Part shown: piece by piece, positions 3,185 through 43,663 of the stretch
Layout: every line of letters starts with the position of its first letter
Position numbering within the stretch: the first letter of the stretch is position 1
NCBI GenBank assembly: GCA_027486835.1
Contig: JAIXOJ010000104.1
Coordinates: forward strand, 1 to 64,000
DNA: 64,000 nt
Origin: Chitinophagaceae bacterium
GTDB taxonomy: Bacteria > Bacteroidota > Bacteroidia > Chitinophagales > Chitinophagaceae
Reading direction: 5' to 3'
Made by a program: the position numbers and the translations under genes
The notes under the pieces: generated by a model
Seen by the model: only the letters and a program-made list of their open reading frames with translations
Told to the model about the DNA's origin: nothing
Database searches by the model: none

Positions 3185-3202
3185 CAATTTAAACATAGAA
3201 TA

Positions 3203-5581: not shown

Positions 5582-5785
5582 CTATTAGAGACAAACACTG
5601 CATTGTTGTTTGGTAGATATTAAAGAGTTAAACAGGAATTAAAAAGATAAGTAAATAGGTTTTTGGATTTGCAGAATAAAGGACTGACTTCGATTCTTCA
5701 ATTCAAATAACCAATCGACAACCAATTGTAAATCAAAGTTTGGGTAAAGAATTTACCCAAAGAAATAAAAAATAAAAAGAAAAGT

Positions 5786-6898
5786 ATGTTTAGGTCACTC
5801 ATTTTTGTATGCTTATTCCCTGTTTTCGCATTAGGGTGCAGTAAAAAAAGTGCAACAAATAGCAATGTTGCATCAAACACAGTATTAGCCACTAATCCAT
5901 TAATTGAATACAATGGACGATTTGATTTTACAGATCCATTGCAGCCAAAATGTTCTTTTTCAGGTGCTTCTATTCGAATTATGTTTCAAGGCACGAGTAT
6001 TAAGGCAGTACTTAGTGATAATAGTACCTCTAATTATTTCAATGTGATAGTGGATGGATTGGTAACAAAAAGAATCCTCTTGACCGCTGAAAATTCAACT
6101 TACGTTTTAGCCTCTGGTTTATCTGATGCTGTTCACGAAATAGAATTGTATAAACTCACAGAATCGACTTTTGGAATAACAACATTTAATAGTTTTATTT
6201 TGGAGGAGGGGAAAACACTTGTGCCTATTACCACTACAAGAAAATTGTTTTTTGAGTATTATGGCGATTCAATAACCTGTGGGTCAGGTATTGAAGGGTC
6301 ATCTACTTCTAGCCAATCAAACGGTAATCAAAACCACTATCTTTCTTATGCCGCTATCACTTCCCGCAATTTCAAGGCAAGGCATCAAGCAGTAAGTAAA
6401 TCTGGGGTAGGTTTATTTTTAAATTATACCAATACCGCTGTTCCAACTGATGTAGAAAGTGCAAATAGTATGAACAACTATTTTGACAGAATTCATTGGT
6501 CTTCTGCAACACCACTTTATCAATTCCAAAAAACGCCCGATATGATATTCATCAATTTAGGAACAAATGATTTTTCTAAAGGGGTAAACGATGCTAAATA
6601 CGAAGCAACTTATTATGCCTTTATTGACAAATTGCAAGTAAAAAGTCCGGGGGTTGATATAGTGGTTTTATTAGGGCCAATGATTTCCGGCTGGAACTAC
6701 ACACATTTCAAACCAATACTTCAACGAATAGCAACAACTGCAAATGCTAAAAACAAAGGAAAGGTTCATTTTTTTGAAATGTCCCAACAAGGTGCATTGG
6801 GTACGGGTTCGCAAAACCATCCAAATGTGGCACAACATGCTAAAAATGCACAAGAACTCACCGATTTTATAAAGACTATAAAGCCATCTTGGAAATAG
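5786..6898 (+). CDS. CE2-type acetylxylan esterase lipoprotein (SGNH fold)
   Basis: 370 residues. The leader ends in a lipobox (ALGC) at about residue 18, so this should be a lipoprotein. Residues 40-145 fit the jelly-roll N-domain of carbohydrate esterase family 2. The SGNH hydrolase domain follows: GDSIT with nucleophile Ser162, INLGTND (block III) and a C-terminal HPN containing the catalytic His. The family removes acetyl groups from xylan and related polymers. With the GH11 xylanase two genes downstream this suggests acetylated xylan. The 204 bp before it show nothing certain. Confidence 0.82.
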   Translation: MFRSLIFVCLFPVFALGCSKKSATNSNVASNTVLATNPLIEYNGRFDFTDPLQPKCSFSGASIRIMFQGTSIKAVLSDNSTSNYFNVIVDGLVTKRILLTAENSTYVLASGLSDAVHEIELYKLTESTFGITTFNSFILEEGKTLVPITTTRKLFFEYYGDSITCGSGIEGSSTSSQSNGNQNHYLSYAAITSRNFKARHQAVSKSGVGLFLNYTNTAVPTDVESANSMNNYFDRIHWSSATPLYQFQKTPDMIFINLGTNDFSKGVNDAKYEATYYAFIDKLQVKSPGVDIVVLLGPMISGWNYTHFKPILQRIATTANAKNKGKVHFFEMSQQGALGTGSQNHPNVAQHAKNAQELTDFIKTIKPSWK

Positions 6899-6950
6899 TA
6901 AATCAAGAATTTAGTAGAAAAAACGTCTCATAATAATAAAAAATAGAAAA

Positions 6951-8345
6951 ATGAAAAAGTGTTTAATTATCGCTCTCTTAGTTCCTGTATTTGCATTTGC
7001 TTGTACAAAAAAATTCTTTAATGGCAACTCAGTTGTAACGACAAGTACAACAGCTCTGCCTAAAGGACTTCGTTATCTCTATGTTTCTACCTCAGGGAAT
7101 GATGCAAATGATGGCTCTAAAAACCGACCATTTTTAACAGTAAATAAAGCGGCAGAAGTTGCCATTGCAGGTGATGTGGTGGTAGTAAAATCAGGTACTT
7201 ATGTTCCTAGTTCCAAAATTACCCCTGCCAATTCAGGTACATCAACCAATCCAATCATTTACTATTCAGAAGTAAAAAATGAAGCAATTGTTGATGGTAG
7301 CAATTCAGTAGATGGTACAAAGACTGATAGGCGTGGATTATTTGATCTTAAAGATAAAAGCTGGATAATAATTGATGGATTAAAAATTGTCAATGCTAAA
7401 TTCTGGGGTATCATGGGTACTGGCGGCAGTGACATTACGGTGAAAAATTGCAAGACTTACAACACTGGCGCATCAGGCATTTGTATAGCTGGGTCAACAA
7501 AAGTTTCTGTTTTATATAATGATGTAGAAATGGCTTGTATGATAAATGACAAACCAACTAATACAGGCGAGTGTATCAGCTTGCCATCAGTAGTAGGTTT
7601 TGAAATAGCGTATAATACCGTTTCAAACAGGTTGACTGATCCTAACAATGGTGGAGAAGGCATTGATGCTAAAAACGCTTGCTCGAATGGATCAATACAC
7701 CACAATACAGTTTTCGATTTAAAAAGGGTGGGTATATACATAGATGCCTACAAAAAAAACATCAATAACATTGAGGTATATGCCAATAAAGTGTATAAAA
7801 CGGGTGGTGGAATTACCGTTGCTAGCGAAGAAGGAGGTAAGGCTAGTAATGTAAAAGTGCATGATAATCTTGTGTATGATATTGGCACCATCGGAATTAG
7901 AATTGCGGGGTACTTAAATAATGGGCCTCTTGAAAACATAGATGTTTACCACAACACCATTTACAATTGTGGCAATAAAGGAAAATGGGAAAATTGTGGT
8001 TTACTCCTTGAAGCTTCTAATCCTGCAAACTCTGGCTTTAGCATCCGCAACAATATAATCAGTGGCTGCCCCATTCCGATAAAAAGCAATACCTCTCAAA
8101 ACTTTCCAGTCACCGTAGATAACAATTTGTTTTTCGGTTCAATAGGCAAGTTCTCTGCTCAAACTACAGTTACAAATACCATCAATTTAGATCCCCTTTT
8201 TGTAAATCCTTCCACCTTGGATTTTAAATTAAAAGCCAATTCTCCTGCTATCAATAAAGCAGTAGGAATGCCCATGTCAATTAAAGATTTTACCGATTTC
8301 ACAAGAGATGCTAAGCCAGATTTAGGTGCTTTTGAATATAGATAA
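6951..8345 (+). CDS. Parallel beta-helix lipoprotein, likely polysaccharide-active
   Basis: 464 residues with a lipoprotein leader (FAFAC, Cys18). YVSTSGNDANDGS followed by AGDVVVVKSGTY is the standard opening of right-handed beta-helix proteins of the DUF1565/polysaccharide lyase type. Successive coils then carry NxxxNxxxG-like rungs, including GGEGIDAKN and IHHNTVFDLKRVGIYID, and the protein ends with LGAFEYR, the usual end of this group. Such proteins are often lyases or glycosidases on uronate-rich polymers, but no catalytic set can be assigned by eye. It lies 52 bp after the CE2 esterase and shares its type of leader. Confidence 0.75.
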   Translation: MKKCLIIALLVPVFAFACTKKFFNGNSVVTTSTTALPKGLRYLYVSTSGNDANDGSKNRPFLTVNKAAEVAIAGDVVVVKSGTYVPSSKITPANSGTSTNPIIYYSEVKNEAIVDGSNSVDGTKTDRRGLFDLKDKSWIIIDGLKIVNAKFWGIMGTGGSDITVKNCKTYNTGASGICIAGSTKVSVLYNDVEMACMINDKPTNTGECISLPSVVGFEIAYNTVSNRLTDPNNGGEGIDAKNACSNGSIHHNTVFDLKRVGIYIDAYKKNINNIEVYANKVYKTGGGITVASEEGGKASNVKVHDNLVYDIGTIGIRIAGYLNNGPLENIDVYHNTIYNCGNKGKWENCGLLLEASNPANSGFSIRNNIISGCPIPIKSNTSQNFPVTVDNNLFFGSIGKFSAQTTVTNTINLDPLFVNPSTLDFKLKANSPAINKAVGMPMSIKDFTDFTRDAKPDLGAFEYR

Positions 8346-8368
8346 CCTATCAATAATTAAACTGAAAT

Positions 8369-9136
8369 ATGAATCAATATACTTTGAAGAAAAATACCTC
8401 AAAATACCTGTTTGCTTTTTACTTGGTTTTCTGTAGTTGCTTGGGTCTACATACCTACGCGCAAAAATCTGATACGCTCCACAACTACGAAAGCGGGACA
8501 AAAATTAACAAGACTGCATATTGGCAAGTAGGAAAAGATTACCATGCTGAAACTTGGTTTGGAAATATTATAGGTGAGGCAAGCCTAGCCACCTATGGCA
8601 GCAAAAGCTTTCAAATCGATTGGAACCTTACCCAGTATGGTTTTTTGCACGAAGTAGGTTTGTACGAACTCAATGTTCCCGTTGATTCTGTAAACCCCAA
8701 AGCAAAGGGTAAGTACAAACATTCATTTAAAAATATAACGGGTGCAGGTGGCTACACGGGCTTGTACGGTTGGTTTGGAAAACCAGGTACCCCCGAATCA
8801 ATTGAGTTGTATATCAATGAAAATTGGGTAGGCAATCCATCCATCAATACCAATGACTTAGTGAAGAAAGGCACCATAACAGTTGATGGAGCTACCTACG
8901 ATATATACACCCGCCCACGCAATGGGAAAAAATTTGCCCAATGGTGGAGTAATCGAACATCCCCACGCACCAAAGGCACCATTTCTTATGCAAAGCATTT
9001 TCAAGCATGGCGAAAATTGGGATTGCCTGCTATCAATTTAACCCGACTCACTTATGCTTTTGAATGTACCTGGGGTGCTCCTACTGGTGGAAGTTTAAAG
9101 TATCATTATTTTAAAATTGGTAAGCCAACATTGTAA
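8369..9136 (+). CDS. Secreted GH11 endo-1,4-beta-xylanase
   Basis: 255 residues with a signal peptide ending near HTYAQ. The beta-jelly-roll GH11 fold is recognisable: YTGLYGWF leads into ESIELYINE, where Glu146 matches the nucleophile; ATYDIYTRPR is the thumb strand; FAQWWSNR and the AKHFQAW helix follow; YAFECTWG places Glu232 as acid/base. Both catalytic Glu residues are present. It should cut xylan internally outside the cytoplasm. It diverges from classical GH11 at the N-terminus (residues 40-100) and lacks a carbohydrate-binding module. It sits 23 bp after the beta-helix gene. Confidence 0.88.
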   Translation: MNQYTLKKNTSKYLFAFYLVFCSCLGLHTYAQKSDTLHNYESGTKINKTAYWQVGKDYHAETWFGNIIGEASLATYGSKSFQIDWNLTQYGFLHEVGLYELNVPVDSVNPKAKGKYKHSFKNITGAGGYTGLYGWFGKPGTPESIELYINENWVGNPSINTNDLVKKGTITVDGATYDIYTRPRNGKKFAQWWSNRTSPRTKGTISYAKHFQAWRKLGLPAINLTRLTYAFECTWGAPTGGSLKYHYFKIGKPTL

Positions 9137-9236
9137 GAGATTAATCACTATAGTAATATTGATAAAGAATTAAAAATTTTATAGTACGTTTCAATTTACA
9201 TTTCAGTATAAATCTTAAAACTTGCTGATAGCAATT

Positions 9237-11471
9237 ATGAAATTTCAAAAAATAAATCAAGTATGGTTAGCGGCTATTAGCATCACTTGGGTCGCTCCAG
9301 TTAAGAACAAGGTGTTGCAAAAAGCATTCTGCGCAGCAGCCTTTGTATTATGGTCTATAAGTGTATTTGCTGGCAAATCAGATTCCACTAGAATTTTATT
9401 TATCGGCAACAGCTACACCTATGCCGGCATGGGCGAGCAAAACCCCGAAATCCCTTTCCGGTTAAAGGAAATGGGGGCATTGTACAAGAAAAAAATCCAT
9501 ACCAGCTCTGTAGTAAAACCTGGGGCGCAGTTAGAACAGCATTGGAAAGATGGCAAGGCGTTGCAAATGATACAAACAGGGCATTTCAATTTTGTGGTGC
9601 TGCAAGACCAAAGTTCCGCAGCCTTTCTTAGTTTAAATTCATTTAGGGAATATGCCGCAAGGTTCGATTCTGCCATTAAAAAAAGTGGCGCCAAAACCGT
9701 TTTATACATGACTTGGGGCTATGCCGACAGACCCAAAATGGGCGATACCATTGCTTATGAATACAACCGTTTGGGCAAAGATTTAGGTGCATTGGTTGCG
9801 CCTTGTGGGGTGGCTTGGAAATGTTTGCTAGAAAAAAATCCCAACATCGAATTGCACATCTCCGATAAATCACACCCAAGAACAGAAGGTGTTTACATCA
9901 ACACCTGTGTGTTTTACCAAACTTTTTTTGGAAAAATTCCATCAGACATTTTATACACCATCAAAAACAAAAACGTACATATTGAAGGCGATTTAGCCAA
10001 TAAATTACAGTCAGCCGCCAATGACGCAATCGCAATAAATGCAGATTATGGAAAGCTACAACGGCTCAATCAAAACCCCTATTTCCAAAGCCCCTCTGCC
10101 GACATCAACCAGATTATTATTTATGGACAAAGCCTTTCTACAGGCCAGCAAACAGCACCAGTCATTTCTGTAAAAAACTATGCGGGCAACTTAATGTTGG
10201 GGGAACAAGTATGGTCTAACCTTTCTAATAATTTAGATACGGCAAACCTTGTTTTCAAACCACTAATAGGTCGTCCTGCTATTTCTTATAAGAAAACGAA
10301 TAAAGATGTTTATGCAGATACAGCTATCAATGCAGGTAACCAAATCAATTGCGAGCCACCAGTGCTTGGCTTTGTAAATGCCGCTAAGTATCATTTTGAT
10401 CAAACGTTTAAAGGATTCCCCGATAGAAAATTTGCAGCAACGAGCAGTGGCGAAGGTGGCCGCTCCATAGAATTATTGATGAAAGATTGCCCCAACAGAC
10501 CCACCAAGCTGTACAATCATTTTGTAAAAGCAATCCAGAAATCAAAAGAAGCCGCCGACCGAATGAATAAAACCATCAATTGCTCCGCCATTTTGTGGAT
10601 GCAAGGAGAGTATAATTACACCACAGCCGCCAACCAAGGCTGGCTGACCAATACACCAGCTACAAAAGACAAAAACGAGTACAAGAAATATTTTAACACA
10701 TTGGTCACTGATATACTTAGCGATGTCACTTCCACATATCAGCAAACACAAAAGCCTATATTCATCACCTACCAATGCGGCGCACAATACACCCGCGATT
10801 TTGATGTACCCGTAGGTATGGCGCAGCTAGAACTTGCCAATGCAGACCCAAGAATAATTATGGCAGGACCAGTCTATCCAGTCACCGATAGGGGAGGGCA
10901 TCTTTGCCCCAATGGCAGCCGTTGGTATGGCGAAATGATGGCCAAAGTGTATTACAAAACGGTAATCAAAGGCGAAAAATGGAAACCCTTACAACCCAAA
11001 GAAATCACCAAGGGCTCTGATTTTATTGACATTGACTTTTATGTGCCCAAAGCACCCTTGCGCTTAGATACCCTAACCCTTCAAAAGGCAATAAACTATG
11101 GTTTTGAAATAAGGCAGAGTGGTCAAATGAAAACAATAACTGCCGTCACCATGCTTTCACCCACCAAACTTAGAATTACGGTTAGTGAAGCATGGAGTGA
11201 TAGCACTGTAGAAATAAATTATGCCGGCCCCGCCACCAAAGGCAACGGCAATCTATGCGATAGCGATGATTTTAAATCTTTTGAAACCTATCAAGAGTTG
11301 GTGGCAGGCGGCGATACCGAAAAAGAAAGAAACCGATTTAAACCAAGGTATGAACCTGTAGATAAAAATGGAAAAATCATCTACGACCAGCATTACCCAA
11401 TGCAAAATTTTAGCTGTGCTTTTTACTATGCAGTGCCTGCCGGTACCAATACTTTACAATGCAAATGGTAG
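9237..11471 (+). CDS. Two-module SGNH esterase (DUF4886-like plus sialate-esterase-like)
   Basis: The ATG at 9237 is chosen; a TTG 15 bp upstream is the only longer option. The signal anchor ends at SVFAG (about residue 45). The first module is SGNH: FIGNSYT with Ser59, VVLQDQSS, and HPRTEG with the His. The second module has IYGQSLSTGQ with Ser299, ILWMQGEYNY and GGHLCPNGSRW, resembling the sialate O-acetylesterase group. The two probably remove different acyl groups from a decorated polysaccharide. Two catalytically complete SGNH modules in one chain is the notable point. It belongs to the xylan/esterase run. Confidence 0.75.
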   Translation: MKFQKINQVWLAAISITWVAPVKNKVLQKAFCAAAFVLWSISVFAGKSDSTRILFIGNSYTYAGMGEQNPEIPFRLKEMGALYKKKIHTSSVVKPGAQLEQHWKDGKALQMIQTGHFNFVVLQDQSSAAFLSLNSFREYAARFDSAIKKSGAKTVLYMTWGYADRPKMGDTIAYEYNRLGKDLGALVAPCGVAWKCLLEKNPNIELHISDKSHPRTEGVYINTCVFYQTFFGKIPSDILYTIKNKNVHIEGDLANKLQSAANDAIAINADYGKLQRLNQNPYFQSPSADINQIIIYGQSLSTGQQTAPVISVKNYAGNLMLGEQVWSNLSNNLDTANLVFKPLIGRPAISYKKTNKDVYADTAINAGNQINCEPPVLGFVNAAKYHFDQTFKGFPDRKFAATSSGEGGRSIELLMKDCPNRPTKLYNHFVKAIQKSKEAADRMNKTINCSAILWMQGEYNYTTAANQGWLTNTPATKDKNEYKKYFNTLVTDILSDVTSTYQQTQKPIFITYQCGAQYTRDFDVPVGMAQLELANADPRIIMAGPVYPVTDRGGHLCPNGSRWYGEMMAKVYYKTVIKGEKWKPLQPKEITKGSDFIDIDFYVPKAPLRLDTLTLQKAINYGFEIRQSGQMKTITAVTMLSPTKLRITVSEAWSDSTVEINYAGPATKGNGNLCDSDDFKSFETYQELVAGGDTEKERNRFKPRYEPVDKNGKIIYDQHYPMQNFSCAFYYAVPAGTNTLQCKW

Positions 11472-11570
11472 CTATTTCAATTTCCTTATTGGTATTGAAT
11501 AAAATGAATAGTTCAAAAAGAAAAATGATAAACTAAACTTGGTGGATAGGTTGTTAAAAGAAATGTTTTT

Positions 11571-11839
11571 TTAGGAAGAAAGATTGGAGGTTCCTACATC
11601 AATTCCGCTTTATTTGATTTGGAGAATAGGGAAATATTATTACCCCCCGCCAATCTTACAAACAGGGGATGGGTTGACCCAAGTGAATCTGTAGTTAAAA
11701 TATCGCCCAATCCCTAGAAAAGTTTTTGCCACAAACGGTAGAAGTATTATCGAAAAAAGGAATCAAGATAAATATCTTAAAAGCAGTTTTAGGCGAAAAT
11801 GCAGCCATCATTGGGGCTTGTGCTTTTGCTTGGAATTAA
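11571..11839 (+). pseudogene. Remnant of a ROK-family sugar kinase/regulator
   Basis: Two pieces of a ROK protein remain. The first (11580-11708) reads KIGGSYINSALFDLENREIL and continues to an in-frame TAG; it matches the N-terminal GIDIGGS region of ROK proteins. The second (11729-11839), in another frame, reads VLSKKGIKINILKAVLGENA and ends AAIIGACAFAWN-stop, the typical ROK C-terminus. About 250 internal residues, with the catalytic and zinc regions, are missing. This is an internal deletion plus frame loss. The stop codon is 14 bp before the next gene, so the lost gene probably belonged to the same sugar locus. Confidence 0.8.
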
Positions 11840-11853
11840 TAAAAATTAAAACA

Positions 11854-14415
11854 ATGAAGATGAAGAAAATAACAGGGTTAGTATTGGTAGCTTACCTACT
11901 TGTTTTAGGAAACCTATTTGCCCAACCATTAACCATTCAAGGCAATTGGAAAATAAAATTTGAAGACAAAACTGAATTTAGTAAAGCAGATTACAACGAT
12001 GCGGAATGGGAAAATTTACCCGCTTTAAAATGGAGTGATGACCACAAAACCACGGCTAATCGAACCTTGTGGGTTCGCAAGAAGGTGATCATTCCTTCTT
12101 CATTGCAATCGGAATTTGCCAAAACAGGTTTGTTGTGTTTGGCTATGGGCAAAATCCAACAGTCCGATGATACTTATCTCAATGGCAAGCTTGTGGGATC
12201 AACAGGTTCTGGCGATTCTTATCGTAATTATTTAATTACCAAAGAGGATATTTTGTGGGATAAAGAAAATACCATCGCCATCAGAGTAAGCCATTGGGGT
12301 ACATTCAGTATTTCTAAAACTCCCAAGTTTTCAGCAGCAACGCCATCTGTATTTTTTGGGTTTACAGCCACTATCAAAAACGGCAACAGCAAAGAACCTG
12401 TTCATGGTAAACAGTTAGATTACCAATTAAGCATTGCCAATAAAGCCCCCATGAGTTTGGCAGGAATGGTGAAAGCAGATTTCTACAATTTTCAAGGTGA
12501 TAAAGTCAATACGGCTCAAAAAGAAGTAAACCTTTCAATGGGCAATAACTCCTTAGTATTTCCCTACAAATCCTTAACCCCGTTCATAAAAGTGGTTTAT
12601 ACCTTATCCATTCCTGCATACCAATACAACACGGAGTGGAATGCAGAATTCGGGTATGAAAACCTAGTGTATAAAAGTGTAACCCCAGTTGTAGCCTACA
12701 AAGCACCACAACATTTTTTTCCGGCAGAACTAGATAAAATACATATTGACGGCTGGCTAGGCGAGCGGCTAAAGGCCAATACACAACAGCGTTTGGAAAA
12801 AGTGGATGAAGATGCCATCCTGGCAGGTTTTGTCAATCGACCAGGCAATCATTCTTGGATTGGGGAGCATATTGGTAAGTTTTTAGATGCTGCTTGTAAT
12901 GCCTATGCCAACAACGCAGACCCTGCATTGAAAATTCAAATTGACCGAAGCGCACAGCAATTAATTGCAGCACAACTGCCCGATGGCTATTTGGGCACTT
13001 ATGATATGGACAGCCATTGGACAAGTTGGGATGTATGGAGTCACCGCTACGATTTAATGGGGTTATTGCGCTATTACCAACTATCTGGTTTTAAGCCAGC
13101 TTTGAGAGCCTGTGAAAAAATTGGTGATTTGGTCATTCAAACTTTTGGAGACGAAAATGGAAAGAAAGACATTATCAAGTCTGGCCCACATGTGGGCATG
13201 GCAGCAACCCGTATTTTAGAATCAATGACGGAGTTGTACCGCTTTACGGGCAACAAAAAATACCTAGACTATTGCTATTATTTGGTAAAAACGTACGATC
13301 ATAAAGGTGGGCCAAGAATCATTACAACCTTAGATTCTATCGGTAGGGTAGATAAAGTGGCCAATGCAAAAGCTTATGAAATGATGTCTAATTTTTTAGG
13401 CATTATCAAACTCTATCGTCTTACCAACGATGAAGCCTTTTTAAAACCTTTAGAAACAGCATGGAAAGACATTGTTGCAACCAGATTATACATCACCGGC
13501 ACGGCAAGTTCCTTTGAGCATTTTCAAGATGATGCCATTTTACCCGCCACCGATAAAGACAATATGGGGGAAGGATGTGTAACCACCACATGGATACAGT
13601 TTAACTACCAGCTTTTCTGTATCACTGGTCAAATGAAATATTTAGACCAACTAGAGCGTGCGGTATATAACCACCTAACGGGTGCCGAAAATCCACAAAC
13701 AGGCGGCGTTAGTTACTACACACCTTTAATGGGTAAAAAGCCCTACCGCACAGTGATTACTTGCTGCATGAGCAGTGTGCCAAGGGGCATCGCCATGATT
13801 CCATTATTTGCCAATGGCAAGATCAATAGCAATCCTGCCTTTCTTTTTTACCAACCTGGCATCTACACCACTAGTGTAGATAAGAAACCGCTTTCCTTTA
13901 CCACTTCTGGTGATTTTTTAAGTGGACAGGATGTAACCATCACCGTAAACGACAACTGTCCAGCAGCAACTGCCATCACATTTAGGAAGCCTTATTGGGC
14001 AACTGATTTCTCTCTTTTGGTGAATGGACAAAAGCAAACCATAACCAACACCGAAACCATTGACCTTAAAAGATTGTGGAAAAAAGGCGATGTTATCACC
14101 GTCAGTTTTAAACTATTACCAATCGTACTAGATGGTGGCAAAAGCTACCCCAACCAAATTGCCCTCCAACGCGGGCCTCAAGTATTGGCTTTTGACCAAA
14201 GCATCAATGGGGTAGAAGCCAGTGGTGTTAAGATTGATGCCAAAAACATTCAATTGCTCACACCCAATTCCCCACTACCCAGCCAATGGATCGGTGGCAA
14301 GGCTTTTCAGTTAAAAGCAGCCAATAACAATACAGATACCAACATCATACTAGTGCCTTATGCTGATGCCAGCCAAACTGGGGGCGTTATTTCTACATGG
14401 ATAAATAAACAATAA
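11854..14415 (+). CDS. Secreted GH127 (DUF1680) beta-L-arabinofuranosidase-like enzyme
   Basis: The ATG at 11854 gives 853 residues; an upstream TTG is inside the ROK remnant and was rejected. A signal peptide (GNLFAQ) is followed by a GH2-like sugar-binding jelly roll (residues about 30-180, with DDTYLNGKLVG). The DUF1680 (alpha/alpha)6 domain begins at GWLGERLKAN. The zinc-thiolate site of GH127 appears as Glu573-x-Cys575 (EGC) and the Cys637-Cys638 pair (TCC), the latter holding the nucleophile in the family. It likely trims L-arabinofuranose or similar side chains from arabinoxylan or pectin. Confidence 0.85.
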   Translation: MKMKKITGLVLVAYLLVLGNLFAQPLTIQGNWKIKFEDKTEFSKADYNDAEWENLPALKWSDDHKTTANRTLWVRKKVIIPSSLQSEFAKTGLLCLAMGKIQQSDDTYLNGKLVGSTGSGDSYRNYLITKEDILWDKENTIAIRVSHWGTFSISKTPKFSAATPSVFFGFTATIKNGNSKEPVHGKQLDYQLSIANKAPMSLAGMVKADFYNFQGDKVNTAQKEVNLSMGNNSLVFPYKSLTPFIKVVYTLSIPAYQYNTEWNAEFGYENLVYKSVTPVVAYKAPQHFFPAELDKIHIDGWLGERLKANTQQRLEKVDEDAILAGFVNRPGNHSWIGEHIGKFLDAACNAYANNADPALKIQIDRSAQQLIAAQLPDGYLGTYDMDSHWTSWDVWSHRYDLMGLLRYYQLSGFKPALRACEKIGDLVIQTFGDENGKKDIIKSGPHVGMAATRILESMTELYRFTGNKKYLDYCYYLVKTYDHKGGPRIITTLDSIGRVDKVANAKAYEMMSNFLGIIKLYRLTNDEAFLKPLETAWKDIVATRLYITGTASSFEHFQDDAILPATDKDNMGEGCVTTTWIQFNYQLFCITGQMKYLDQLERAVYNHLTGAENPQTGGVSYYTPLMGKKPYRTVITCCMSSVPRGIAMIPLFANGKINSNPAFLFYQPGIYTTSVDKKPLSFTTSGDFLSGQDVTITVNDNCPAATAITFRKPYWATDFSLLVNGQKQTITNTETIDLKRLWKKGDVITVSFKLLPIVLDGGKSYPNQIALQRGPQVLAFDQSINGVEASGVKIDAKNIQLLTPNSPLPSQWIGGKAFQLKAANNNTDTNIILVPYADASQTGGVISTWINKQ

Positions 14416-14995: not shown

Positions 14996-15420
14996 ATGCA
15001 CAAGCGTAAGAATAATAACTGCGAGGATGAAAATGCCATCTGTGTGCGTGAAAATGAAAACTGTGAGGCTGCAAATGTCATCTGCGTGCGTAAAAATAAA
15101 AACTGCGAGGCTGCAAATGTCATCTGCGTGAGTGAAAATGAAAATTGCGAGGCTGCAAATGCCATCTGTGAGCGTGAAAATGAAATTTACGAGGCTGCAA
15201 ATGCCATCTGTGTGCGTGAAAATGAAAATTGCGAGGCTGCAAATGTCATCTGCGTGAGTGAAAATGAAAACTGCGTGCGACAAAATGACAACTCTGAGGC
15301 TGCAAATGTTAAGTGTGAGGCTGCAAATGTTAACTCTGAAGCCGCAAATGTTAAGTGTGAGGCAGCAAATGTTAACTCCGAGGCTGCAAATGTTAAGTGT
15401 GAGGCAGCAAATGTTAATTA
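14996..15420. repeat. Second 42-bp (later 21-bp) tandem repeat array
   Basis: Roughly seven 42-bp units of the form gtgcgtgaaaatgaaaac plus a tgcgaggctgcaaatgtc-like half, followed from about 15295 by 21-bp units (gaggctgcaaatgttaagtgt alternating with ..aactct). The sequence is unrelated to the array at position 1 although the period is the same. Long frames are open on both strands because the unit is a multiple of three. The predicted proteins have no signal, no start context and highly biased composition (NENCEAANVIC repeated), so coding is doubtful. Confidence 0.9.
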
Positions 15421-15430
15421 CGCATGGGTA

Positions 15431-15907
15431 AATATAAAATCCACACGACACTATGGCAAAAATGGACTGTTTTTGGGTGTTTTTAATGACTAAGTGGCAT
15501 ATTTTGGGGTGTATTTGTATTTTTATTAAAACGGGTGTCAAGTTGGCAGTGTGTTGTTATGCTTGGGTGTATGGAATTTTTAGTACCCAATAGATAGGTA
15601 TTGCAGCTTATTTTCAGGAGTTGGAAGGTTTGTTTAGGGTTTAGTTTTCTTTGGAAAAAACTAGAATAAAGTTGTTGGAATAAAAAAATAGGGTATTGTG
15701 TGCGTGATATAAACGCAACCAAAAATGGGATGGGAGGAGTATACGGCGGATTAAACATCCAATTTTTTAATTTTTCGCAAACACTAAATAGATTCATTCC
15801 CATAATTGAGGAAGTTTTGACGTAAATCATCATTAGCACTCTGCAATGGGAACATCAGTTTTGTTAGTAATTTTTTTATAGGAGTAGTTAGTTGAAATAT
15901 GAAGTAT
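15431..15907. other. Gene-free stretch downstream of the small-membrane-protein operon
   Basis: No convincing gene, RNA or terminator was seen. A 118-codon open frame on the minus strand has no recognisable features and low-complexity AT-rich codon use. Confidence 0.5.
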
Positions 15908-16096
15908 TTAAGCATTGCTGCAGATTGACCAACCAATCAATATTGCAATAGCAATGTACAACAGGCCAATTTTCATCAGATTTTTTCCGAGTTTTCGTTT
16001 TTTAGGAATGATAAAAAAAATAACCAACCCTAATAAAAAAGTAAGCGGTGGCAAAATCAAAAGAACGATGGTGGTAAATATTTCTATCTCGATCAT
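15908..16096 (-). CDS. Small two-TM membrane protein, copy B
   Basis: 62 residues: an acidic start, a hydrophobic segment at about 8-30, a basic loop (PKKRKLGKN) and a second hydrophobic segment at about 41-60 ending in SICSNA. The stretch GKNLMKIGLLYIAIAILIGW is clearly related to GKLLMKIGLTSLGFEILIGF in the gene upstream, so the two are tandem paralogues. It starts 18 bp after copy A and is the last gene of a four-gene minus-strand operon with an Lgt-like enzyme and a radical-SAM protein. Function unknown; an integral inner-membrane location is likely. Confidence 0.6.
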   Translation of the reverse strand: MIEIEIFTTIVLLILPPLTFLLGLVIFFIIPKKRKLGKNLMKIGLLYIAIAILIGWSICSNA

Positions 16097-16114
16097 TATG
16101 GAATCTTTTAAATT

Positions 16115-16297
16115 TTATCTAGAACAAAGTGCAAAGCCAATCAAAATTTCGAATCCCAACGAGGTTAATCCAATTTTCATTAATAATTTCCCTCTTTTAA
16201 TGTACTTTTCATTACCTAGATTATAAAAAAGAAAACCAAGTATTTGGACTATGATTGGTAAGCATAATAAAAGAATCATAAGATAAACCAGTGCCAT
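16115..16297 (-). CDS. Small two-TM membrane protein, copy A
   Basis: 60 residues with two hydrophobic segments (about 3-25 and 40-58) separated by the basic turn NEKYIKRGK. Its C-terminal half is homologous to the 62-residue protein next to it. It begins 7 bp after the stop of the radical-SAM gene, which implies translation from the same mRNA. Both proteins end in a Cys-Ser pair (ALCSR here, SICSN in the other), the only shared polar signature visible at that end. No known family is recognised. Confidence 0.6.
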   Translation of the reverse strand: MALVYLMILLLCLPIIVQILGFLFYNLGNEKYIKRGKLLMKIGLTSLGFEILIGFALCSR

Positions 16298-16304
16298 TCT
16301 CCTT

Positions 16305-17696
16305 TTATTTTGTTCTTAATTGTTCCAAAACTTTTTCTTGGTGTTCGTCCCTATAAAATAAATTCATGGTTTCAAAAGGGATGATTCGTCCGTCTTTGTG
16401 AACAATGTGTACACAGCTTTTCTTGATGGTGCGCACATCAAAGTCATAGGCATCAATAAATCGCATGATGATTATGCGGAACAAATTGTTGTAGGATAGT
16501 CCTGGCGCTTGTATTTGAGGCAAACAACAGAGCAGAGACTTCATGTCTTCCGTAACCGCATCAACACTAACCCCTGTACTAAATACTTTAATCAATTGCT
16601 CGTGCAATTGCTCGTCTTGTTCATACACAATGGTGTTCTTACTATTATTCAGTAACACCATCGGATCTACATAACGCGTGAGTGGAAATACTTGATTGTT
16701 TAGTTTTAGTACATAACCCATCGCCAATGCATCTGGGTTGCAGGGCACTGGTACAATATCGTTTGGTTGAAACACATTGGTTTGCGACAATATTTTGTTT
16801 CGCACATCCGTCAGCGTAATCCGGTCTGTTGCAGGATCAAAATGTTCTGTTCTGCCAGCAATTTGGGTGGGTTGAAACGTAACTCCACGAATACATTTTT
16901 GTTGCAGGGCATAGTCAATGATGCTGCCAATTTCATCATCATTCACCCCCTTTTGCAGTGTAACCACCAGTGTGGTGGACAAATTGAGTTCGTTGAGTTT
17001 GTCAATTGCTTTTTTGCGAACTTCTGTCAAGTCCTTCCCTCTTAATTGTTCGAGGGCCGATGATTTAAAAGAATCGAATTGCAAGTAAATTTCAAAATCG
17101 GGCTGATAAGTAGCCAATTGCTCGGCAAAGCCAGGATCATTTGCAATGCGTATTCCATTGGTATTCAGCATTAGATGCCTAATAGGTTTGGTTTTGGCAA
17201 TATCCAATATTTCAAAGAATTGAGGATGAATGGTAGGTTCACCTCCGCTTAGCTGCACTACATCAGGTGTTCCCTCGTTAGCAACGATGATATCCAACAT
17301 TCTTTCTACCTCTTCCACCGTTCTATGCCTACCATAATGGGGGCTGCTCATGGCGTAACAGGTGGGGCATGTAAGATTGCATCGGTCGGTTATCTCAATC
17401 ACCGTTAAGCAACTGTGCTGTTCGTGGTCGGTACATAAACCACAATCATAGGGGCAACCATAATGCACTTTTGTATTTGTTTTAAGTGGTGCATCGCTTG
17501 GTTTGTTATAGTTGCGAATGTTTTTATAGTATTCAATATCCGTTGCAATTAAGACCTTCTCCGCCCCATGTTCAGGGCATCTTTTCAGCATATACACGTT
17601 GTCTTCCTGAAAAATGATTTTTGCATCCACTCGTTTGAGGCATTGCGTACAGAGCGACAATGTAAAATCATAATAAGTGTAATCTTTTGTGGACAT
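16305..17696 (-). CDS. Radical-SAM protein of the MJ0619/tetraether-synthase-like group
   Basis: 463 residues. The canonical cluster motif is CNLTCPTC (Cys106, 110, 113), with SGGEPT at 150-155. In front lie extra cysteines: Cys16, Cys19 and Cys40 as a small metal-binding N-domain, and Cys81, 85, 88 and 96 (CPYDCGLC). This layout, with an N-terminal rubredoxin-like knuckle and a second Cys-rich segment just before the radical-SAM motif, is that of the MJ0619-related group, whose archaeal member joins lipid tails. A Cys-rich C-terminal part (LLCCLPQ, near 380) follows. Coupling to an Lgt-like membrane enzyme 12 bp upstream suggests a lipid or lipid-linked substrate; that is inference. Confidence 0.75.
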   Translation of the reverse strand: MSTKDYTYYDFTLSLCTQCLKRVDAKIIFQEDNVYMLKRCPEHGAEKVLIATDIEYYKNIRNYNKPSDAPLKTNTKVHYGCPYDCGLCTDHEQHSCLTVIEITDRCNLTCPTCYAMSSPHYGRHRTVEEVERMLDIIVANEGTPDVVQLSGGEPTIHPQFFEILDIAKTKPIRHLMLNTNGIRIANDPGFAEQLATYQPDFEIYLQFDSFKSSALEQLRGKDLTEVRKKAIDKLNELNLSTTLVVTLQKGVNDDEIGSIIDYALQQKCIRGVTFQPTQIAGRTEHFDPATDRITLTDVRNKILSQTNVFQPNDIVPVPCNPDALAMGYVLKLNNQVFPLTRYVDPMVLLNNSKNTIVYEQDEQLHEQLIKVFSTGVSVDAVTEDMKSLLCCLPQIQAPGLSYNNLFRIIIMRFIDAYDFDVRTIKKSCVHIVHKDGRIIPFETMNLFYRDEHQEKVLEQLRTK

Positions 17697-17708
17697 ACTT
17701 CCTTGGGA

Positions 17709-18476
17709 TTATTTTTTTGAAAATGAAAATAAATGTTTTTTCATTAGGTAAAGCAATAGGTAATATAGTAAACCTAGAAATGCTACAATTTGGATAGTGG
17801 AAAGGGCTAATTGCTGATTATAATTTGGCTTGATAAAGTCAATAAAAAAGCGAAAAATGCAGTAGCTAATCAGGAATATTTTAAATAAAAGGCCATTTTG
17901 TAGTTGGTATTTTGAAGAAAAAAGTATCAAACTGCCCCATAATACTAGCAGATAAGCCATTTCATACAAACTGGTAGGATGCCTAGGAATACCATCTCCC
18001 AAATCCATCCCAGTAAAAAAATGAGTAGGTATTCCATAACATTCTTCATATACCCCCATGCTAAAACAACCCATCCTTCCAATGATTAAACCCAGAATAA
18101 TAGGATATACTAATAAGTCTCCTGTATTCTTTTGCTCGCTGATGATTTTTTTTGCCAACTCCACTCCAAATAGCCCTCCAAGAAAGCCTCCCAAAACTGT
18201 TTTATTGCCAAAAAAATACAATAGTTTATCATTGGAATGCATCATAGCCGCAACATTCTCTAATCCTCCCACCAATCTACTACCTATTATAGCACCAAAA
18301 ATGGCACCTATAATTGTCCACCATCTCGTGTTAGCGTCAATGGGGTCGCCCTTTTTTTTCTTAAGCCAATGAAAATAGCGGTAGCCAATAAAATAAGCCA
18401 ATATTTCGGTGATGGAGTGAAGCGGAATGCTAAGCGTATCATTAATATGGATGGTAACTGGAAAATGTAAGTGCAT
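17709..18476 (-). CDS. Lgt-family (prolipoprotein diacylglyceryl transferase-like) membrane enzyme
   Basis: 255 residues with about seven hydrophobic segments. Family marks are GAIIGSRLVGGLEN (61-74), KTVLGGFLGG (92-101), IGRMGCF (132-138) followed by CYGIPT, and HPTSLYE (166-172). Lgt moves diacylglycerol from phosphatidylglycerol to the lipobox Cys. Several family features are shifted (for example VYEEC between the Gly-Cys-Phe and Tyr-Gly-Ile-Pro blocks), so this may be a paralogue acting on another acceptor. It is the first gene of an operon with a radical-SAM protein and two small TM proteins. Confidence 0.75.
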   Translation of the reverse strand: MHLHFPVTIHINDTLSIPLHSITEILAYFIGYRYFHWLKKKKGDPIDANTRWWTIIGAIFGAIIGSRLVGGLENVAAMMHSNDKLLYFFGNKTVLGGFLGGLFGVELAKKIISEQKNTGDLLVYPIILGLIIGRMGCFSMGVYEECYGIPTHFFTGMDLGDGIPRHPTSLYEMAYLLVLWGSLILFSSKYQLQNGLLFKIFLISYCIFRFFIDFIKPNYNQQLALSTIQIVAFLGLLYYLLLYLMKKHLFSFSKK

Positions 18477-19585: not shown

Positions 19586-20047
19586 TCAATTATTATCAAT
19601 ATTTTTATTCTTATCCCTTTCTGTAATATGAGTAGGTGATTCTTTCCCCAACCATTTCCCACCATTCACCAAATACAATTCGTAAAAAATTATCCATTCG
19701 CTTATCCAAGGTATAGTGTACTTATAAATCATTTTCTGTACTCCCCATTTCATATCTGGAGGGTAATGCAAGCAAAGGCTGTGATCTTTATACATGTGTA
19801 TCTTCACAGAAGGCTCAATTTCGGGTGTCAATATGGTAGTCTTAGGTTCAAGTCCAGCCACACACTCAATTTTCACCTTGTATATTCCAGTGCAATTTTC
19901 AGGTTGAATACTTCCAGTACAGGTTAGAACATTACTTATGACTCGGCAATCCAAAAAATCATACTCTTTTTCTATTAATTCCTTTTGATAGCACAGATGC
20001 GAGTACTTATTGTACGGTCGCTTTGAATTAAAGAATTGGCTACTCAT
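19586..20047 (-). CDS. CBASS-type E2 (ubiquitin-conjugating-like) protein
   Basis: The ATG at 20047 (MSSQFF) overlaps the cyclase stop by 8 bp, giving 153 residues. The pattern CTGSIQP, IYKVKIEC, HMYKDHSLCLHYP, YTIPWISEWIIFYELYL and GGKWLGKE matches the stand-alone E2 proteins of short type II CBASS operons. Cys92 in LCLHYP is the expected conjugating cysteine. In CBASS such E2s attach the nucleotidyltransferase C-terminus to a target. Here the only enzyme available is a cyclase, and no E1 or JAB peptidase gene is adjacent. Translational coupling to the cyclase gene points to the cyclase as partner. The family call is by eye but strong. Confidence 0.8.
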   Translation of the reverse strand: MSSQFFNSKRPYNKYSHLCYQKELIEKEYDFLDCRVISNVLTCTGSIQPENCTGIYKVKIECVAGLEPKTTILTPEIEPSVKIHMYKDHSLCLHYPPDMKWGVQKMIYKYTIPWISEWIIFYELYLVNGGKWLGKESPTHITERDKNKNIDNN

Positions 20048-21146
20048 AATGAAAACGATGGTCTTGATTTTTAATACCTGTTGCAGAAGATGATATATTG
20101 CCACTTCTATCAGTAAAGGCATTGCCAGTATTAATTAGCTGTGCGGTTCCCATCAACTTTTGAATTCTTTCCTTCTCTACTTGCTCTTTGTCTTTTATAA
20201 ACAAGTTACCATCTGCATCTTCAGTTATTTGTGGAAGGCTCTTTAAATACTTTATCCAATTGAAATCCCATTGTTTGTAATAGAAACTCTCATCTGGAAT
20301 TTGAAAAGCATAAGAATCTACCTTGCCAGATGCATCACGAACATGCTCAAAAAATTCTTCCGAAACACTTGAATTTGATTTAATGTTGTTTCCAACCACA
20401 ATTCCATTATTTGAAGCGGCACTTTGCATTTTACTGGCTAAACTAGTGTGTAAACTACAGGTTGTTATTTCGCTACAATCACCCATTCCCGCTTTATACC
20501 AAAGCACATCTTCATCATCGCCTAAATCGATGCCTGTTCTCGCAAATATATTCTCAATTCCTTGTTCATTAAACAACTCTTTCAAATCATTTTTCATAAA
20601 ATAATTTATAAAGCTTGTAGTTGTAAGTGCGTTATCGGTGGCTTCCTTTTTAGAAATACTTTTACCACCAAAATAAGCGAACAATCCATCTCCATGATAC
20701 CGTTGTATATACCCATCAAAATACCATACTGTGTGTACTGCTGCCCTTTGAATAACATTGATAATGTTTGCCACGGTTTCAGGGTTGTATCTCCTAAACA
20801 AGTTTGTAGAATTTTTTACATCAATAAATATTGAAATTATATAGTGATTTTCAAAACTTGTTTCATCTTTCAGGTTGTCAAAATCGGGGTGTGCTCCTGG
20901 CTTTAAATGATAATTCACTTTTTTCCCTGATATGCTATTTAATGGCTGCAAGCTCTCAAATAGCTTTTGGTCTCTTTCAACACTAAGTGCCATTTTCATA
21001 GGTATATTGCTATACGATCTTGTGGCTTCTTTTAATGCATTAGATGCATTAAAAGCATTGGACTTGCTTAATTCGCCTCTTTTTGTTCCGTGTTGAAGAG
21101 TGTTTCTTAACTCATCAACATAACTTTTGTAAAATTCTGTTTGCAT
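20040..21146 (-). CDS. pycC: Class III nucleotidyl cyclase, Pycsar-type (PycC-like)
   Basis: 368 residues, soluble. The cyclase homology domain spans about 100-260. Metal ligands are Asp109 (FIDVKNST) and Asp153 (YHGDGLFAYFGG). Where common class III enzymes have a transition-state Asn and Arg (VNxAARL), this protein seems to read TSLASKM (234-240), i.e. Ser and Lys. Helical sequence precedes the domain, and about 75 residues follow it, ending HRFHYE. The adjacent PycTM-like effector identifies it as a pyrimidine cyclase for antiphage signalling (cCMP or cUMP); the base cannot be read here. It starts 9 bp after the effector gene and overlaps the E2 gene. Confidence 0.82.
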   Translation of the reverse strand: MQTEFYKSYVDELRNTLQHGTKRGELSKSNAFNASNALKEATRSYSNIPMKMALSVERDQKLFESLQPLNSISGKKVNYHLKPGAHPDFDNLKDETSFENHYIISIFIDVKNSTNLFRRYNPETVANIINVIQRAAVHTVWYFDGYIQRYHGDGLFAYFGGKSISKKEATDNALTTTSFINYFMKNDLKELFNEQGIENIFARTGIDLGDDEDVLWYKAGMGDCSEITTCSLHTSLASKMQSAASNNGIVVGNNIKSNSSVSEEFFEHVRDASGKVDSYAFQIPDESFYYKQWDFNWIKYLKSLPQITEDADGNLFIKDKEQVEKERIQKLMGTAQLINTGNAFTDRSGNISSSATGIKNQDHRFHYE

Positions 21147-21155
21147 AGTTTTGAT

Positions 21156-21659
21156 TTAATTGTTAAAAATTATGATACTAATAATAATGATTCCTACAAA
21201 TTGAAGTAAGAGAAATATTGTAGCAGTAGTAATTCTTTGAAACTTTTTCTTTAAGCCAGATGCCAATAAATATCCTTGTTTTTTAAAGTCCAAGTAAACA
21301 TCTGGACCAGTCATCGCGTCATATTTTTTGTCAAATTCTAGCCAGGAATTACTTGCTACATCATTGAAAAATATTAATGAAGTGTCTGCTTTTTTAGTGC
21401 TTTTCAAAAAAGGCATTGTAGCCCATATGGTAAACCCGAACCCCAATAGATTGAATATTAAGGTGACACACAATAAAAAGATTGTAAATGAATCAAAATG
21501 TATTTTGTCTTTCAATGAAAAATATCCTCCAATAATCCCACTCATCAAAAATGAATTCAAAGGGAGGTACAAATTGCCTTTACTATTTACGCTCTCATAA
21601 AATGTATCAAACCTACCGATACAAAATTTTAGTTGCTCTATTTTATCTTTTTGATCCAT
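21156..21659 (-). CDS. Pycsar membrane effector (PycTM-like, DUF5706)
   Basis: 167 residues. Segment order: an N-terminal helix with FDTFYESVNSKGN; TM1 about 31-49; TM2 about 57-81; a cytoplasmic part beginning PFLKSTKKADTSLIFFNDVA; and TM3 about 143-165. This matches Pycsar TM effectors, which are thought to bind the cyclic pyrimidine nucleotide and damage the inner membrane. It lies 9 bp before the cyclase and 9 bp after the LRAT-like gene. Family assignment rests on the SVNSKGN and LIFFNDVA patterns and the gene pair. Confidence 0.8.
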   Translation of the reverse strand: MDQKDKIEQLKFCIGRFDTFYESVNSKGNLYLPLNSFLMSGIIGGYFSLKDKIHFDSFTIFLLCVTLIFNLLGFGFTIWATMPFLKSTKKADTSLIFFNDVASNSWLEFDKKYDAMTGPDVYLDFKKQGYLLASGLKKKFQRITTATIFLLLQFVGIIIISIIIFNN

Positions 21660-40196: not shown

Positions 40197-40973
40197 ATGA
40201 GCATGAATGTTAAAAACAGTTTTGACCTTTCAGGAAAAGTAGCCATTGTTACCGGTTGCAGTAGTGGCATTGGCAAATCGATGGCAGTAGGCTTAGCAGA
40301 GGCAGGTGCGCGCATCATTGGTGTATCCAGCAGACTGTCGCCCGAAGGCAGTGATGTGGAAAGAGAAGTATTGGCTGTTGGTGGTCAATTCTCTGCTTAT
40401 CAGGCCGATTTGGGTAATCGTGATTCTATTTACGCCTTCATTAAAAAAGTAAAAGAAGAAGAGCCAGTAATTGACATTTTAATTAACAATGCAGGCACCA
40501 TCCTAAGAACCCCAGTAGCCGAACATCCCGATGATATGTGGGATAAAGTAATCAACATCAATTTGGATGCGCAGTTTATCTTAACTCGTGAATTTGGTAA
40601 AGACATGATTGCTCGTGGTAGTGGTAAAGTCGTATTCACTTGTTCGCTGCTTACTTTCCAAGGAGGTATCAATGTGCCTGGTTACACTGCAAGCAAATCT
40701 GCAGTAGGTGGTTTAGTAAAAGCATTTGCTAACGAATGGGCCAGCAAAGGGGTAAACGTAAATGGTATTGCACCAGGGTATATTACTACCGATAACACGC
40801 AAGCTTTGAGAGAAGATCCAGAAAGAAGCAAATCAATTTTAAGCAGAATTCCCGCAGGACGTTGGGGCGAGGCTGATGATTTTAAAGGCCCTGTGGTATT
40901 CCTTAGTTCTGAAGCTGCTCACTATGTACATGGAACTATCTTAACGGTAGATGGTGGATGGATGGGCAGATAA
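40197..40973 (+). CDS. kduD: 2-dehydro-3-deoxy-D-gluconate 5-dehydrogenase
   Basis: 258-residue short-chain dehydrogenase. The cofactor motif is TGCSSGIGKSM; NNAG follows; the active site is in YTASKSAVG with Tyr and Lys; the C-terminus is TVDGGWMGR. The match to KduD is strong because kduI and kdgK follow. KduD reduces 3-deoxy-D-glycero-2,5-hexodiulosonate to 2-keto-3-deoxygluconate, a step in breakdown of unsaturated uronates from pectin or other uronic polymers. First gene of the operon. Confidence 0.93.
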   Translation: MSMNVKNSFDLSGKVAIVTGCSSGIGKSMAVGLAEAGARIIGVSSRLSPEGSDVEREVLAVGGQFSAYQADLGNRDSIYAFIKKVKEEEPVIDILINNAGTILRTPVAEHPDDMWDKVININLDAQFILTREFGKDMIARGSGKVVFTCSLLTFQGGINVPGYTASKSAVGGLVKAFANEWASKGVNVNGIAPGYITTDNTQALREDPERSKSILSRIPAGRWGEADDFKGPVVFLSSEAAHYVHGTILTVDGGWMGR

Positions 40974-41067
40974 TCCACTTTATGATAGCAGGGTAGTAAA
41001 GCCTATCACTAGAAAGTAGTTACTATCGGATTTAATGTAAAATTTTAATTAAAACAGAATAAAAATG

Positions 41068-41095
41068 CTCCGTTACACCCCACTTGGGGACGGAG
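41068..41095 (+). repeat. Hairpin just before the kduI start
   Basis: CTCCG (41068-41072) pairs with CGGAG (41091-41095), enclosing CCCC-acttg-type-GGGG. It sits 8 bp before the preferred ATG and overlaps an upstream in-frame ATG, so it may shape translation initiation or be a small intergenic repeat. Confidence 0.6.
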
Positions 41096-41103
41096 GCCAA
41101 CTC

Positions 41104-41934: not shown

Positions 41935-42024
41935 AAACAGACCAACGGCATCATTTGCTGTGGGAACTTATAAAAACAAATAATTCGTAAATATTTTTTT
42001 TCATTTCACAACAATTTAAATACA

Positions 42025-43050: not shown

Positions 43051-43058
43051 TTCAATTT

Positions 43059-43092
43059 AAAACCGTCGGAAGGGTTTCTTTCTGACGGTTTT
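43059..43092 (+). terminator. Hairpin terminator after kdgK
   Basis: AAAACCGTC pairs with GACGGTTTT around a 16-base loop. It may be partial termination, since the next uronate genes continue in the same direction. Confidence 0.7.
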
Positions 43093-43106
43093 GCAAATAA
43101 TAGGTT

Positions 43107-43559
43107 ATGATAATAGATACTATTGCTAACGCACACAAATATTTTGGCGTGCACCCCTTGTTTGAAAAAGCATTTGCTTATATCACTTCCACCGACTTGG
43201 CAAATGCCGAAGTGGGTAAAACAGATATTGAAGGCGACAATTTAAAAGCAATCATTTCTAGTAAAGTGGGCGTTACTGCTGCTGAATCTGTTGCAAAATT
43301 TGAGTGTCACAATAAGAACATCGATATTCAATTATGCATCAAAGGCGTAGAGCAATTTGGCTGGAAACCACGTGAAAAATGTGTTGACCCCAAAGGCGAA
43401 TATAATGCCGAGAAAGATGTGTTGTTTTTTAACGATGCGCCAGATATGTATTTCCAATTAACAGATGGGCAGTTTGTTATTTTCTATCCAGAAGATGTAC
43501 ACGCCCCTATGATTGGCGATGCGGAAATAAAAAAACTAGTGGTTAAAGTTAAGATTTAA
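43107..43559 (+). CDS. YhcH/YjgK/YiaL family protein
   Basis: 150 residues. ECHNKNIDIQLCIKGVEQFGW and FVIFYPEDVHAPM are the DUF386 cupin motifs, with a likely metal site of His and Glu. Family members sit in sialic acid, uronate and other sugar operons and are thought to act as anomerases or epimerases on acidic sugars. Here it is between kdgK and the KDPG aldolase. Confidence 0.88.
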   Translation: MIIDTIANAHKYFGVHPLFEKAFAYITSTDLANAEVGKTDIEGDNLKAIISSKVGVTAAESVAKFECHNKNIDIQLCIKGVEQFGWKPREKCVDPKGEYNAEKDVLFFNDAPDMYFQLTDGQFVIFYPEDVHAPMIGDAEIKKLVVKVKI

Positions 43560-43589
43560 GGGAATCTACATTTTACCTTTTTCCCCCTT

Positions 43590-43617: not shown

Positions 43618-43663
43618 ATTCATTTGATAAACAATATTTCATCAACAAAAAATTAAACTAATT

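Follow-up and report, generated by a model that had tools for sequence, protein, structure and literature searches.

What might unite, in a single operon, a divergent relative of the prolipoprotein transferase Lgt, a radical S-adenosylmethionine (SAM) protein resembling tetraether synthase (Tes), and two small membrane proteins? The question is raised by positions 15908 to 18476 of a 64,000-nucleotide stretch of DNA from a Chitinophagaceae bacterium (assembly GCA_027486835.1, contig JAIXOJ010000104.1), referred to below as the window. Four genes stand there in a row on the minus strand. The first encodes LgtL (17709..18476), a divergent Lgt-family protein of 255 amino acids (aa) with seven transmembrane (TM) segments, recognized by PF01790, its fold, and its invariant residues. 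The second encodes a Tes/TrsS-like radical-SAM protein of 463 aa (16305..17696), here called rSAM and recognized by its match to the structures 7tom/7tol and its invariant metal ligands. The last two encode the small two-TM proteins TM2 (16115..16297, 60 aa, ending ...EILIGFALCSR) and TM1 (15908..16096, 62 aa, ending ...AILIGWSICSNA), both marked by a C-terminal Cys motif and by occurrence in the genome at this locus only. A first-pass annotation of the window had proposed a four-gene operon with gaps of 12, 7, and 18 bp, and the coordinates of the open reading frames (ORFs) confirm it.

The same annotation had proposed a lipid or lipoprotein-lipid modification pathway, and this is still the leading reading, given the operon, the co-occurrence of its genes, the presence of a second Lgt, and a Tes-related rSAM with extra Cys residues. 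The form of it that we favor, with slightly less than even confidence, is that the small proteins would be substrates, S-lipidated by LgtL on a C-terminal Cys, with rSAM altering the alkyl chain of the lipid.

Conservation and linkage of the gene set

We examined the best 80 of 547 candidate loci from a scan with one genome per species, taken as Bacteroidota by record title, and found LgtL in the flank of rSAM in 76. An even selection of 395 Bacteroidota genomes (LgtL threshold, E < 1e-25) yielded rSAM in 31 genomes and LgtL in those same 31 (hypergeometric p ~3e-45), with one further genome holding LgtL only; the two genes were close together on one contig in 29 of the 31. Seven positives were seen in a sample of 61 genomes made up of the source genome and its relatives, and in each of these LgtL stood beside rSAM. 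A chance neighborhood is rejected by these counts, and the gene set does co-occur in other genomes. Tree distances of LgtL and rSAM are also correlated (r 0.74, Mantel p 0.0005, 77 loci), a correlation to which shared species history contributes. In many other genomes the two genes overlap by 8 to 29 bp, which suggests that they are translationally coupled. A promoter and terminator scan gave no signal above shuffled sequence.

The first-pass annotation knew of no such bacterial four-gene set. This holds for the searchable literature, in which no description of the gene set came up when Lgt was searched for together with Tes or radical SAM (subscription papers and preprints were outside the search), but not for genomes, where the set is widespread.

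Two further observations concern the surroundings of LgtL in other genomes. One genome (G076) carries an orphan LgtL (locus L149, 6653-7498) that is 36% identical and of the same family, with no rSAM or small Cys protein nearby; it is perhaps a cassette remnant. Directly upstream of LgtL in 11 of the 80 loci (including L028, L029, L030, and L091) lies a gene for a secreted lipoprotein-like protein of ~205 aa with no Pfam match, the gap to LgtL often being 1 to 18 bp. With 11 of 80 loci, this gene is not a general member of the cassette.

LgtL, a second Lgt-family protein

LgtL matches PF01790 (LGT) with an E value of 8e-26 and 91 bits, above the curated cut-off of 24.9, and its AlphaFold model (seven TM; predicted local distance difference test [pLDDT] score, 92) has E. 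coli Lgt (5azb, E 1.3e-6) as its sole significant fold match in the PDB. Against NCBIfam TIGR00544, which describes bona fide prolipoprotein transferases, it scores 50.3 bits, below the cut-off of 118.9. It is not the only Lgt of its genome, as another of ~430 aa is encoded on a different contig, so LgtL is a second Lgt. Because an Lgt-family protein, typically of the ~430-aa type, was present in every one of the 53 near-complete genomes among the relatives sampled, we regard the longer protein as the housekeeping enzyme; in the seven positive genomes it was found alongside LgtL in all except G053, which is incomplete.

E. coli Lgt has an absolute requirement for six residues, Y26, H103, R143, N146, G154, and R239 (PMC13251419). 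Its phospholipid pocket is lined by R143, E202, Y235, and R239, and the H103GGL segment has been proposed to bind the lipobox peptide (PMC4728403). Equivalents of R143, G154, and R239 were present in 76 of 76 LgtL homologs, and the equivalent of Y235 was invariant too. The remaining three of the six are not retained: Y26 is replaced by His (74 of 76) and N146 by Cys (76 of 76), and H103 is replaced by Leu (65 of 76, otherwise by another aliphatic residue), in a region, around residues 98 to 106, where the alignment is less certain than elsewhere. The housekeeping Lgt of the source genome also has Cys at N146. Taken together, the donor site appears to be kept and the acceptor site changed, as might be expected of an Lgt switched to another Cys motif.

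rSAM, a relative of tetraether synthase

PF04055 and the HMPTM N-terminal zinc ribbon are both recognized in rSAM. Among solved structures, its best match is MJ0619 (7tol/7tom, E 3e-68, about 30% identity), the Tes enzyme also named GDGT-MAS, for glycerol dialkyl glycerol tetraether (GDGT), which acts on lipid tails (PMC9433317). The structure model of rSAM is weak (pLDDT 63.5), and its best fold match is still 7tom/7tol. We compared rSAM and its homologs with the metal-site motifs described for Tes (PMC9433317). Invariant residues were found for a rubredoxin-like site (C16, C19, C40, and H43), for the [Fe4S4]N cluster (C81, C85, and C88, with a nearby His), for the radical-SAM (RS) cluster (C106, C110, and C113), and in the C-terminal region (C319, C390, C391, and C428, together with the labile Met M411). 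Three [Fe4S4] sites and a rubredoxin-like site, the full set of Tes, are thereby predicted, the C-terminal site being putatively assigned from C319, C390/C391, C428, and M411. The extra Cys ligands in the MJ0619 pattern that had been pointed out in the first-pass annotation are thus present, and rSAM is a Tes relative.

rSAM nevertheless does not qualify as a tetraether synthase. Against the Tes model NF045702, whose equivalog cut-off is 450, it reaches 286.8 bits, and it reaches 329.4 bits against the TrsS model NF045646, whose equivalog cut-off is 490 and which is the best-scoring NCBIfam model, aligned over nearly its full length. Moreover, Met439 and Tyr459 of Tes are strictly conserved across 1,000 archaeal homologs, and our alignments place M411 at the former and I431, an invariant Ile, at the latter. 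Variants of MJ0619 at Y459 are still active; the change from Tyr to Ile is a family marker and no proof of lost activity. On its sequence, rSAM is a separate subfamily, Tes-like yet below the cut-offs of both Tes and TrsS, and a coupling of lipid tails (sp3-sp3) by rSAM is putative.

The small membrane proteins and their conserved Cys

TM1 and TM2 are paralogs, 41% identical to each other. Over all loci, the small proteins are strongly hydrophobic, have two or three TM segments, and mostly measure between 53 and about 110 aa; their genes usually stand just downstream of rSAM and sometimes between LgtL and rSAM. Under a strict filter, 51 loci had one copy, 14 had two, 5 had three, and 1 had four; one entry each in loci L075 and L087 looked spurious and was omitted from later counts. 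No Pfam or NCBIfam family matched the small proteins above its cut-off, and membership in a known family was rejected on that ground. Their median pairwise identity is 25%, as opposed to 58% for LgtL and 77% for rSAM.

What nearly all of them have in common is a C-terminal motif, [GS]-x-x-x-C-[SGT] followed by a short tail. It consists of G (79%) or S (21%), then mostly F/L, S/T, and V/T/L/I, then Cys, then S/G/T; the tail usually runs for 3 to 14 residues and often ends in His. The Cys is the only invariant residue in an alignment of the short forms, an invariance that in the collected set is partly due to selection, as the filter demanded a Cys. A comparison of positions gives the fair test: [GS]xxxC near the end was present in 93 of the 109 hydrophobic small ORFs that lie downstream of rSAM and in 7 of the 103 that lie elsewhere in those loci (Fisher p 5e-34). 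A small hydrophobic ORF with the motif near its C terminus was present in 71 of 79 loci, and in a second locus set in 22 of 29 within 1.5 kb; several of the seven misses there reflect contig ends, an unlinked LgtL, or a slightly different motif. In the window, counting from the translations, the invariant Cys is residue 58 of TM2 (codon 16124..16126, minus strand) and residue 59 of TM1 (codon 15920..15922, minus strand; alignment column C59). A profile of the short forms, which overlooks most of the longer three-TM proteins, found in the source genome TM1 and TM2 alone, with no copies outside the locus, and gave two convincing matches in relatives (G026 and G060), both at the cassette.

These properties bear on the main rival reading, which starts from the enzymes, namely, that rSAM joins or methylates the acyl tails of bulk phospholipids, that LgtL shifts glyceryl groups between lipids, and that the small proteins are subunits or scaffolds. 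It draws on the relationship of rSAM to Tes in sequence and, through the weak model, in fold, on the near-constant presence of small proteins at the locus, and on the proposal that bacterial Tes homologs make membrane-spanning lipids (PMC8941075, PMC11868695). However, one to four copies would be unexpected for subunits of conserved enzymes, as would the alternation between two and three TM helices and the gain of Pro-rich N termini while one Cys is kept. In addition, Lgt is established as an enzyme that transfers onto the thiol of a Cys, and Cys-bearing small proteins are what the cassette provides. We consider this alternative rather unlikely. The first-pass annotation had likewise taken the small paralogs for membrane subunits, but substrates are the better fit for proteins that vary in copy number, are very poorly conserved, and share a single invariant Cys near the C terminus.

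The position of the Cys relative to the membrane could be estimated from charge. The 12 residues before the last helix contain a mean of 2.4 Lys/Arg and the tail contains 0.4, and the flank before the helix was more basic than the tail in 90 small proteins and less basic in 1. By the positive-inside rule, this places the Cys, by prediction, where the last helix meets the periplasm. Both TM1 (...IPKKRKLGKNLMKIGLLYIAIAILIGWSICSNA) and TM2 (...NEKYIKRGKLLMKIGLTSLGFEILIGFALCSR) of the window fit this pattern of basic flank and Cys tail. A lipoprotein signal helix has this same geometry, and Lgt catalyzes its reaction on the periplasmic side (PMC4728403).

The same placement bears on two other explanations. 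Ribosomally synthesized and posttranslationally modified peptides (RiPPs) are usually laid out as a radical-SAM gene next to several small precursors that diverge in sequence yet share one conserved C-terminal motif, and the RiPP maturases SkfB and SuiB are among the next fold matches of the weak rSAM model, mainly by way of the shared core barrel. In such a case, rSAM would modify the C-terminal G-F-S-x-C-S segment before membrane insertion, for example, by a thioether or C-C cross-link, and LgtL would act later or have another task. We regard this as improbable, since rSAM keeps the Tes-type cluster set, and not SPASM/Twitch, and since the Cys end of the motif helix faces the periplasm, whereas radical-SAM enzymes are cytoplasmic. 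Alternatively, the Cys could be a redox or thiol-carrier residue working with the iron-sulfur rSAM, and LgtL could be a membrane platform without transferase activity. That the Cys is the sole invariant residue of the small proteins and that LgtL has lost three residues essential in E. coli Lgt would suit this explanation. The catalytic arginines, Y235, and G154 are, however, invariant in all LgtL lineages, which is unexpected for an inactive platform, and a periplasmic Cys would be remote from cytoplasmic clusters. This explanation, too, strikes us as quite improbable.

Distant versions of the cassette

The cassette also occurs, in altered order, on actinobacterial records. Plasmids of Mycobacterium avium and M. 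branderi have the order LgtL, small protein, small protein, rSAM, and Nonomuraea has one small protein, then LgtL and rSAM. In all five actinobacterial small proteins, the C-terminal end is a hydrophobic stretch that leads into CTG[LI]NP and then a short tail. The LgtL proteins show the same pattern of kept and lost residues, R143, R239, Y235, and G154 being kept in every lineage tested. The rSAM proteins have no N-terminal cluster motif and are only about 34% identical, so the association of the genes has persisted across a large distance. Phyla outside Bacteroidota were sampled via plasmid records only.

In the phylum sample, more distant loci, whose rSAM is about 40% identical, show the order rSAM, a methyltransferase of the ICMT/PEMT family (isoprenylcysteine carboxyl methyltransferase), a DUF4395-like protein, LgtL, and small protein, the two additional genes lying at 7386-8405 in locus L138 and at 4784-5858 in L140. 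LgtL of this ICMT-bearing lineage keeps Tyr at position 26, unlike other LgtL, and the small proteins finish with LFGAC or IFGSC and a tail behind it. When the distant LgtL of L140 was searched against plasmids, no match came up at E 1e-25. Tes/TrsS-like genes on Mycolicibacterium vanbaalenii and haloarchaeal plasmids differ in that they adjoin a methyltransferase without LgtL. On the M. vanbaalenii plasmid (L144, 4315-8345), the Tes/TrsS-like rSAM and methyltransferase genes lie beside CcdA and a disulfide oxidoreductase.

A proposed maturation pathway

We propose that the locus may be a cassette dedicated to the maturation of small integral membrane proteins. The sequences themselves establish the operon and its co-occurrence, the conserved Cys, the topology signal, and the pattern of kept and lost LgtL residues, whereas lipidation of the Cys, the part of LgtL in it, the donor lipid, and the rSAM reaction are inferred. 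The final helix of the small protein would run from a Lys/Arg-rich cytoplasmic loop to the conserved Cys at the periplasmic face and end in a short tail. LgtL, which keeps the glycerolipid-binding and catalytic arginines and has lost the His of the lipobox-reading H103GGL segment, would move a glycerolipid moiety from a putative lipid donor onto the thiol of that Cys. rSAM would alter the lipid's alkyl tail, by C-C coupling, methyl addition, or a similar reaction, before transfer or once the lipid is protein bound.

Several observations weigh against this pathway. LgtL has replacements at Y26, H103, and N146, three of the six residues that E. coli Lgt absolutely requires, which leaves diacylglyceryl transfer putative. 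The residue before the Cys is mostly bulky (V, T, L, or I) and not the G, A, or S of a canonical lipobox, although distant small-protein homologs do have GAC and GSC. A lipobox ([LVI][ASTVI][GAS]C after an N-terminal signal peptide) is absent, as the motif stands near the C terminus, and with no cleavable mature domain the products would be no normal lipoproteins. LgtL and rSAM lie on separate contigs in 2 of the 31 positive genomes. Finally, the small proteins could instead be redox or structural partners.

It is a more far-reaching and, in our view, doubtful step to suppose a new kind of bacterial lipidation, in which a repurposed Lgt would load the periplasmic Cys near the C terminus with a glycerolipid that rSAM has modified and that may span the membrane or be cross-linked, with no cleavage of a signal peptide. 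If this were true, the lipidated small TM protein could serve as a covalent staple of the membrane.

Other features of the window

Just downstream of the operon, a tandem array (14996-15493) with a 21/42-bp unit is open in frame on both strands; it holds ~19 copies of the 21-bp unit (66% matches; 88% for the 42-bp unit) and encodes EAANVxCxxENENC repeats. By eye, one protein of the window resembles a class III nucleotide-cyclase-type protein (20040-21146, minus strand; IDVKNSTNLFRRY...); it lies beside a two-TM protein (21156-21659, minus strand) and a small protein (19586-20122, minus strand); the group may be a nucleotide-signaling or defense set. Genes at 40197-45900 (plus strand), judged by eye, likely serve pectin or uronate catabolism (KduD-like, KduI-like, and KdgK-like proteins and an MFS transporter), and the genes at 425-14415 and 49309-55346 resemble polysaccharide utilization genes.

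Significance and comparison with known systems

Through one conserved Cys, the cassette ties Lgt and tetraether synthase, both of them well-studied enzyme families, to an uncharacterized protein family, and it predicts a concrete observable, namely, a lipid mass on the Cys of the small protein. It also bears on the role of the many bacterial Tes homologs in hosts not known to make tetraether lipids. Such homologs have been reported and tentatively assigned to membrane-spanning lipids (PMC8941075, PMC11868695), and for one large group of Tes relatives, at least, the cassette would offer another explanation. It cautions against taking matches to Tes homologs in Bacteroidota or Actinobacteria as evidence for branched GDGT production. 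A second Lgt with an altered acceptor-binding motif, as found in some genomes, is in addition a natural experiment in Lgt substrate choice.

Of the known systems, Lgt itself (PF01790; E. coli 5azb) shares with LgtL the seven-TM fold, the GRxG signature, and equivalents of R143, G154, Y235, R239, and E202. Its target Cys lies where a helix ends at the periplasmic face, and the small proteins of the cassette would offer a similar geometry. LgtL differs in being a second copy beside a housekeeping Lgt, in the changes Y26H, H103L, and N146C, and in being tied to rSAM as well as to small TM proteins that have neither a canonical lipobox nor a mature domain. The second mycobacterial Lgt homolog, MSMEG_5408, resembles LgtL in its Y26H and N146C pattern (PMC13251419).

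Tes/GDGT-MAS (MJ0619, 7tol/7tom, NF045702) has, like rSAM, the rubredoxin CxxC..CxxH, the [Fe4S4]N CxxxCxxC with His, the RS CxxxCxxC, and a C-terminal cluster region with a labile Met. rSAM departs from it in its identity of about 30%, its 287 bits versus 450, its Ile in place of Tyr459, its Bacteroidota hosts, and its partners, LgtL and the small TM proteins. TrsS (NF045646), a radical-SAM (seleno)protein about which one paper lists its status as a selenoprotein and nothing further, matches rSAM over nearly its full length with 329 bits, yet below the 490-bit cut-off.

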